A stretch of 64,000 nucleotides of DNA from Agrobacterium tumefaciens (lineage in GTDB: Bacteria > Pseudomonadota > Alphaproteobacteria > Rhizobiales > Rhizobiaceae): NCBI RefSeq assembly GCF_013337285.1, contig NZ_SUPW01000001.1, positions 434,001 through 498,000 on the forward strand. The letters are read 5' to 3'. The notes below the pieces were generated by a model. That model did not search any database. It was given only the letters and a program-made list of their open reading frames with translations, and was not told where the DNA came from. A program made the translations under genes and the position numbers. Shown piece by piece: positions 1 through 59,842 of the stretch; the stretch's first letter is position 1, and the number at the start of each line of letters is the position of its first letter.

Positions 1-262
1 TGTCGATCGACACCTGGCAACCGATGATCGGCTGCAGGCCTTCATCGCGCGCCTTTTCGGAAAATTCCAGCGCGACGAAAAGATTGTTGGTGTCGGTGAT
101 GGCGATTGCCGGCTGGCCGTCTGCGACAGCCTTGGACATGATTTTCTTGAGGGGTAATGCCCCCTCAAGCAGGGAATAAGCGGAGTGAACCCGCAAATGA
201 ACGAAACCAGGCGTCTTCAGCGTTTCGTCAGAGTTTTCTCCACGCACAACCGTATCGCCCAT
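1..262 (-). CDS. dnaE: DNA polymerase III subunit alpha, N-terminal part (cut by window edge)
   Basis: Only the first 87 codons are present. They encode the start of the PHP domain of the replicative polymerase alpha subunit: the segment FVHLRVHSAYSLLEGALPL and the later AITDTNNLFVALEF stretch are typical of DnaE1. DnaE2/ImuC, the error-prone paralogue, starts differently. The chosen ATG is at 262. The gene lies 105 bases downstream of a small SOS-controlled ORF on the same strand, so some dnaE transcription could come from that promoter. Family assignment is firm; operon membership is inference. Confidence 0.9.
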   Translation of the reverse strand, partial: MGDTVVRGENSDETLKTPGFVHLRVHSAYSLLEGALPLKKIMSKAVADGQPAIAITDTNNLFVALEFSEKARDEGLQPIIGCQVSID

Positions 263-367
263 ATCGTCGTCCTGTCATTCTGAATCGAGGGGGCGATTTT
301 CCGATTTCCGGCGCTTAAAGTCTACAGCCTTGCGGCCTCCATACAGGCTTCTGCGCCGGTGTTTCCT

Positions 368-454
368 TCACAGGGCAGTGAGGATCACCGAAAAGCTGGC
401 AACAAAGACAGCGATGGAAGCGAAAGCGGCAACGTCACGGATGAAATCAGTCAT
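368..454 (-). CDS. 28-residue single-span membrane peptide under a LexA-type promoter (SidA-like candidate)
   Basis: The ORF begins MTDFIRDVAAFASIAVF and continues to a hydrophobic C-terminus ending SVILTAL. It has a short charged head of about seven residues and then about 20 hydrophobic residues, as expected for one inner-membrane helix. A strong ribosome site (AAGGAGAG) lies seven bases before the ATG. A promoter with a perfect -35 TTGACA and tandem GTTC-N7-GTTC LexA boxes lies immediately upstream. Caulobacter SidA is a 29-residue SOS-induced membrane division inhibitor, so size, topology and control match, but I see no clear sequence identity. It lies between the lolCD terminator and dnaE. 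The function is inferred only. Confidence 0.7.
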   Translation of the reverse strand: MTDFIRDVAAFASIAVFVASFSVILTAL

Positions 455-475
455 TGGTCTCTCCTTACTCGTTAT

Positions 476-510
476 GTTCCAAATTTGTTCTCATTTTGTT
501 CGATTGTCAA
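476..510 (-). promoter_or_regulatory. SOS promoter: tandem LexA boxes overlapping a sigma70 core
   Basis: Read on the plus strand, 476-479, 487-490 and 498-501 are each GTTC, separated by exactly seven bases. This gives two overlapping copies of GTTC-N7-GTTC, the LexA operator known for Alphaproteobacteria. On the minus strand a perfect -35 TTGACA (510-505) is followed after 17 bases by CAAATT as a weak -10. The operators fill the spacer and cover the -10. The small ORF starts 22 bases downstream of the last box. Confidence 0.8.
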
Positions 511-598: not shown

Positions 599-630
599 AA
601 AAAACCCGGAGGTTAAAACACCTCCGGGTT
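599..630 (-). terminator. Rho-independent terminator of the lolCD unit
   Basis: An 11-base inverted repeat (AACCCGGAGGT / ACCTCCGGGTT) with a six-base loop is followed on the minus strand by a run of six T. It sits about 90 bases after the lolD stop. Confidence 0.85.
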
Positions 631-721
631 CGGAAAAAATTCAATTGTGGACGAAAGAGGCGACACATGGAGGTGCCGCGACGAAGCGGCTCAACCGTGT
701 GGACGGTATTACCGGCTCAGA

Positions 722-59585: not shown

Positions 59586-59620
59586 TTGACTCTTCGCTAA
59601 AATTGGAACATTTAGTGAAC
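59586..59620 (+). promoter_or_regulatory. Second SOS-type promoter
   Basis: GAAC (59606-59609) and GAAC (59617-59620) are separated by seven bases: GAAC-N7-GAAC, the LexA consensus read on the other strand. A -35 TTGACT lies at 59586-59591, and the box covers the predicted -10 (17-base spacer). The layout copies the promoter at 476-510. Confidence 0.7.
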
Positions 59621-59638: not shown

Positions 59639-59842
59639 ATGTCCGATGCTGCAAAAATCACCCCTGTACGGCCTGACGACATAGCCGGATACGTCATCCA
59701 GTGTCACGATGGCGATGCAAGGGCGGCCGTCGAAACGCTGCTTGGTGAAATCGAACATCTGCAGGAACAGCTTTCCCTTGCGGTTGCCATCATGGGCAAA
59801 GGATATACGCGTGGCTGGACGCCGGATATGGCAGGCGATTGA
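59639..59842 (+). CDS. 67-residue protein of unknown function behind a LexA box
   Basis: The protein starts MSDAAKITPVRPDDIAGYVI and contains a helix-forming middle (ARAAVETLLGEIEHLQEQLS) that could form a short coiled coil, then a GKGYTRGWTPDM tail. No membrane segment is seen. AGAGG lies seven bases before the ATG. The promoter carries a perfect GAAC-N7-GAAC box, so induction by DNA damage is expected. No family recognised. Confidence 0.7.
   Translation: MSDAAKITPVRPDDIAGYVIQCHDGDARAAVETLLGEIEHLQEQLSLAVAIMGKGYTRGWTPDMAGD

Follow-up and report, generated by a model that had tools for sequence, protein, structure and literature searches.

Analysis of a 64,000-nt stretch of Agrobacterium tumefaciens DNA (the window) revealed a 28-codon gene just upstream of dnaE that probably encodes an SOS-induced homologue of the Caulobacter division inhibitor SidA, and its product would halt septation through FtsW/FtsN; both the induction and the division arrest are predictions. 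The candidate gene encodes the peptide MTDFIRDVAAFASIAVFVASFSVILTAL. The features of the locus, given in the direction of transcription, are as follows.

602–631, minus strand: terminator-like stem-loop of 12 pairs with a T-rich tail, between a lolD-like ORF and the peptide gene.
505–510, minus strand: −35 hexamer TTGACA, read from the sequence; in each of 55 loci TTGAC precedes the box by 0–6 nt.
487–501, minus strand: LexA operator GAAC-N7-GAAC inside the −35/−10 spacer; exact in 53 of 55 loci.
482–487, minus strand: putative −10 element CAAATT, assuming a 17-nt spacer; a weak consensus match found by inspection and unlisted by the promoter consensus scan.
476–490, minus strand: second GAAC-N7-GAAC, overlapping the first.
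461–466, minus strand: ribosome binding site AAGGAG, with the ATG 6 nt further on; read directly from the sequence.
368–454, minus strand: ORF for a putative single-span membrane peptide, probable SidA homologue; ORF list, matched throughout the genus genomes searched, low pN/pS.
2–262, minus strand: 5' part of dnaE, which starts 105 nt past the peptide stop.

The preliminary description of this DNA had proposed a 28-codon ORF with a strong ribosome site encoding one membrane helix. The ORF is real, with AAGGAG placed 6 nt before the ATG and a conserved coding frame, and the helix stands as a predicted span, since inspection of the 28-aa product (29 aa in SidA) showed a single hydrophobic stretch. 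Scanned against Pfam and NCBIfam, the peptide matched no family at E ≤ 10. A tblastn search against phages and plasmids gave no match, which is a weak negative because the query is short and the BLAST low-complexity filter was on. Upstream of the peptide gene and on the same strand lies an ABC-transporter ORF, named lolD by eye, while the terminator scan of the window listed no terminator-like site between the peptide gene and dnaE. The gap between these two genes (262–368, minus strand) contains short islands conserved in the genus, namely a GTGGACTTT-like island, GAAAATC and GA[TC]TCAG; the last stands immediately before the dnaE start and contains a GANTC site, the target of CcrM. These islands possibly represent a separate dnaE promoter.

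Searching relatives for the ORF and its box before dnaE confirmed the observation as a whole, with frame, operator and place all conserved. The peptide was matched in 37 of 37 genus genomes searched (E ≤ 1e-8) and, at E ≤ 1, in 217 of 394 genomes of the family, weak matches being counted among the latter. All 55 loci read (L001–L055) had dnaE following the peptide gene in the same orientation. Among the matches listed for the family (36, one of which, G276, lacked a dnaE row), the peptide stood 109–569 nt before the aligned dnaE start in 35 of 35 genomes with a dnaE position. Selection was evaluated on the 33 of 37 genus genomes with a locus, which contained 29 distinct sequences: pN/pS was 0.133 for the peptide frame and at least 1.3 for the two other forward frames, and the variable sites were distributed 10/1/24 over the three codon positions. 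These values mark 368–454 as a protein-coding gene on which purifying selection acts.

The peptide gene is very likely under LexA control, as judged from its promoter; damage induction is the corresponding prediction. Comparison of the 55 loci showed TTGAC followed by the promoter operator within one mismatch in every case, so that the TTGACA and LexA box reported ahead of the ORF are well founded. The two overlapping operators proposed earlier are both present here, sharing one GTTC (plus-strand reading, GTTC-N7-GTTC) at 11-base steps; however, the three-GAAC array is kept in only 30 of 55 loci, and the overlapping arrangement is thus partly lineage-specific. The argument that such an array would seldom arise by chance is weak when based on the pattern count, since the window contains four matches where 2.2 would be expected and as many turned up in 15 of 100 shuffles, but it becomes strong once conservation across loci is considered. 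Across the genome the pattern occurs 170 times, compared with 78 for the reversed control pattern, and its AT-rich members include one between two ORFs that we named uvrA and ssb by inspection and another 63 nt before lexA, whose product contains a LexA_DNA_bind domain (E 6.5e-17).

Elsewhere in the window, a LexA-type box, GAACATTTAGTGAAC (59606–59620), precedes a 67-aa ORF (59639–59842, plus strand) with no Pfam match at E ≤ 0.01. Relatives of this ORF were found in 18 of 19 genus genomes searched, with the box exact in 10 of 10 loci read, and a paralogue lies in the same genome (C12:253581-253736) with a GTTC-N7-GTTC nearby (C12:253840-253854). This ORF is a candidate for an SOS-controlled small protein.

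In Caulobacter, sidA is CCNA_02004 (PMC11034885). Its product is described as a protein of 29 aa that resides in the inner membrane and acts on FtsW (PMC4211646). The adjacent CCNA_02005 codes for an inosine-uridine nucleoside hydrolase (PMC3667746), and dnaE is listed as CC1926 under the alternative locus numbering (PMC1839093). Caulobacteraceae loci were fetched with PopZ as query, and 12 of the 13 genomes chosen among them had a dnaE match (11 titled Caulobacter or Phenylobacterium and one "Proteobacteria bacterium isolate CAULO1"). All 12 (L206–L217) carried a frame for a peptide of about 29 aa before dnaE. Measured from the most upstream listed start, the frame was 29 aa long in 5 of 12 and 30 to 40 aa in the other seven; when the in-frame start closest to the ribosome site was taken instead, chosen by hand, it was 29 aa in 11 of 12 and 30 aa in L215. 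A divergent nucleoside hydrolase-like ORF lay beyond the peptide in 8 of the 12 loci, and the one that was scanned matched PF01156 (E 1.4e-78). Because the locus neighbours (CCNA_02004/02005) and the length agree, the Caulobacter ORF before dnaE is with high probability SidA, an identity drawn from those two properties and not from the published SidA letters. The window peptide gene occupies the same locus, upstream of dnaE.

Profile comparison of the window peptide group with these Caulobacteraceae peptides using hhalign gave a probability of 80 and a P value of 1.3e-5 over 19 gapless columns beginning at Met1, with 37% identity; only these first 19 columns of the two groups align, and the remainder does not. 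The residues in common between the window peptide and the sidA-locus peptides are R6, D/E7, A10, S13, A15, F17 and V18. Over the full length, identity to three Caulobacteraceae peptides is 25–32%. With a profile built from 54 Rhizobiaceae 28-mers, 10 of 10 distinct Caulobacteraceae peptides scored above scrambles that preserved hydrophobicity (p ≤ 0.012). At p ≤ 0.05 the same held for 25 of 31 candidates from the order and class; the remaining six (L250, L072, L090, L095, L113 and L125) were not above scrambles at that threshold. The ten peptides represent 10 of 12 Caulobacteraceae rows, L208 and L210 being omitted for having the same cores as L206 and L209. For several peptides we picked by inspection the in-frame start codon closest to the aligned position. 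The test was run without L115 (missed by the box-plus-ORF test described below), L296 (probably a chance hit of that box-plus-ORF test) and the second overlapping ORFs of L090, L222, L281 and L311. The sequence relationship to SidA is one to the locus peptides, as distinct from the published SidA letters. These results overturn the earlier statement that no sequence identity to SidA exists, and a SidA-type candidate remains the best reading, on evidence from locus, operator and alignment that is stronger than was first supposed.

A LexA-controlled single-span peptide would also suit the class of SOS-induced TisB/DinQ-type membrane toxins, which depolarise the membrane and slow growth and are no divisome inhibitors; DinQ is described as a toxic peptide with a single transmembrane segment and under SOS regulation (PMC3567139). 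The aligned homology and the locus in common with the sidA-locus peptides speak against a toxin of this type, which we regard as improbable.

Slightly less probable still is the reading that the ORF is a leader (uORF), translated in order to control dnaE, with a peptide that is itself without function. The gene immediately precedes dnaE, no terminator-like site was listed in the gap, and Sinorhizobium meliloti translates an sORF, sORF25, in the dnaE1 5'-UTR; the authors of that study suggested that such sORFs could be uORFs (PMC10117765). Against this, the amino acid sequence is conserved beyond the frame itself, as shown by the pN/pS value and by F17, which occurs in at least 90% of 37 diverse rows. 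Moreover, the gap from the peptide stop to the aligned dnaE start varies from less than 30 to approximately 410 nt (up to 569 nt when measured from the match), unlike the arrangement of a coupled leader. sORF25 is probably the orthologue of the window peptide gene. If the two are the same ORF, its translation suggests some basal expression of the peptide, and its position in the dnaE1 5'-UTR would mean that part of dnaE transcription passes through the peptide gene.

The preliminary description had left open an independent or a strongly diverged example of SidA. The second option held, in the form of a diverged homologue at sidA's own locus. An independent analogue with a separate origin in Rhizobiaceae is very unlikely: short hydrophobic peptides converge easily and the full-length identity is low, but the dnaE locus, the operator type and the start of the alignment at Met1 are common to both groups, and intermediates at the dnaE locus in other families form a partly continuous series. 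One of these (L366, G492:C1:465848-465913; MARWVREMLSLASCGGFVWMAWQAALLAY), with two exact LexA boxes ahead and dnaE after it, resembles the Caulobacteraceae peptides closely and makes a good intermediate. We thus rejected an independent origin.

The distribution was surveyed with a box-plus-ORF test, which asked for a LexA box (one mismatch allowed) upstream of dnaE and, after it, a membrane ORF of 22–45 aa passing a hydropathy cut-off. The 172 dnaE-upstream regions came from 60 class, 12 Caulobacteraceae, 40 order and 60 family genomes; apart from Caulobacteraceae, they were taken from 141 class and 109 family genomes with a dnaE match and from 51 order genomes, and the 60 class genomes represent fewer families. 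Box and small membrane ORF were present in 78 of 172 regions (class, 11/60; Caulobacteraceae, 12/12; order, 20/40; family, 35/60), a total that gives no class frequency because the Caulobacteraceae are a directed sample. Two positive members of the class sample (L066 and L067) belong to the window's own order; outside that order 9 of 58 class genomes were positive, and the other 49 had no candidate by this test, which is strict and missed the profile-positive L115. A TTGAC-like −35 word preceded the box in 47 of the 78 positives. The antisense control yielded 0 of 172 regions, and 20 rounds of dinucleotide shuffling yielded a mean of 0.65 and a maximum of 2; with exact boxes only, the figures were 69 of 172 against 0. 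Likewise, none of 740 genomic tiles contained a box with a membrane ORF, these being a partial control from PopZ and FtsW-family loci that were mostly from Caulobacterales and mostly coding. A chance ORF beside chance GTTC repeats, which the near-expected pattern count in the window would allow, is refuted by the conservation in 37 of 37 genus genomes, the selection on the frame and these controls, and its probability is negligible.

When 143 whole genomes were searched with the profile, irrespective of position, 15 matches were obtained, spread over 13 genomes. Eleven of the 15, among them every one of the nine with E < 1e-3, lay 48–267 nt upstream of dnaE. An exact LexA box was found at each of the six dnaE-upstream matches from loci outside the training alignment and at none of the four matches away from dnaE. 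Of these six, G554 duplicates, over its matched segment, a training row from the genus to which it belongs, and a single genus accounts for both G551 and G448, leaving G551/G448, G492, G559 and G587 as the fully new cases. The 130 genomes without a match in this search indicate that the family is patchy or has diverged past detection. Rhizobiaceae, the family named in the earlier proposal, are nevertheless too narrow a limit, as box and membrane ORF also stand before dnaE in Caulobacteraceae and in other class and order genomes. From the shared place, operator and sequence, the gene has probably been kept just upstream of dnaE since before the split between Rhizobiaceae and Caulobacteraceae.

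As a SidA homologue, the peptide would act as follows. DNA damage would activate RecA and lead to LexA self-cleavage, vacating the operator between −35 and −10. The 28-residue peptide would then be made and inserted in the inner membrane as one helix, where it may bind the FtsW/FtsI/FtsN septal peptidoglycan synthase and keep it in an inactive state, as reported for SidA in Caulobacter. Septation would be delayed until repair is complete. In Caulobacter, filamentation is reported to be lost or reduced in a lexA sidA double mutant (PMC12700426), and a prediction for SidA places it at TM7 of FtsW, though not with high confidence (PMC13396833).

Suppressor positions for SidA in FtsW are A31, F145 and A246 (PMC4211646). 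Two Caulobacter FtsW sequences carry A, F and A at 31, 145 and 246, as in the published wild type, and the FtsW of the window's genome has identical letters. A31 is weak evidence because one of the four Caulobacteraceae FtsW sequences compared has G in that column; for L354 and L355, whose FtsW start codons are uncertain, the A31 column was read off the alignment by inspection. The window's genome has a single FtsW/RodA family match (PF01098, C12:527931-528956), and each of four Caulobacteraceae genomes searched has two or three.

If the gene belongs to an old dnaE-linked family, it would be a candidate for the SOS division checkpoint gene in many Alphaproteobacteria, including plant-associated Rhizobiaceae, that Pfam and NCBIfam do not recognise, and dozens of natural variants would be available to map the way in which a helix of 28 residues blocks FtsW. 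This arrangement also raises the question of why a division brake should stand beside the gene for the replicative polymerase. We tentatively offer, as a possibility that we consider less than even, that SidA is an ancestral alphaproteobacterial checkpoint peptide and that the sidA-dnaE unit was kept because its LexA-controlled promoter serves the replicative polymerase as well. A single SOS switch would in that case raise both the division brake and the DnaE supply, tying septation arrest to the completion of replication.

SidA itself is already known; as far as our literature search goes, its spread across the class, its fixed place before dnaE and its kept operator are undescribed, and the search found no report of SidA outside Caulobacter. 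In the literature sidA has been listed among inhibitors that are unrelated to one another (PMC4211646). SulA of E. coli is likewise an SOS-induced division inhibitor, but it disrupts FtsZ polymerisation and is described as not widely conserved beyond the gamma-proteobacteria (PMC4211646). The Gram-positive and mycobacterial inhibitors YneA, SosA and ChiZ are damage-induced membrane proteins that affect late division steps or FtsW (PMC13396833), like the product proposed here; yneA and chiZ have been called unrelated genes (PMC4211646), and we set them apart by description. DidA, the DriD-induced inhibitor of Caulobacter, is also a small transmembrane inhibitor of the FtsW/I/N complex, but its induction is SOS-independent (PMC4211646); it is set beside the window peptide by description. 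S. meliloti sORF25 shares the position as a translated sORF in the dnaE1 5'-UTR (PMC10117765), and the main text of that study mentions neither SOS nor LexA and does not tie sORF25 to SidA. The closest counterpart is SidA of Caulobacter crescentus (CCNA_02004). The two differ past column 19, where the Caulobacter WMMCxVAQLVA does not align, and in the charge before the helix (D3 here and R3 in Caulobacter), whereas they agree in length (28 and 29 aa), single span, LexA-type direct-repeat operator and position upstream of dnaE, and the sidA-locus peptides share the gapless N-terminal match R6-[DE]7-A10-S13-A15-F17-V18.
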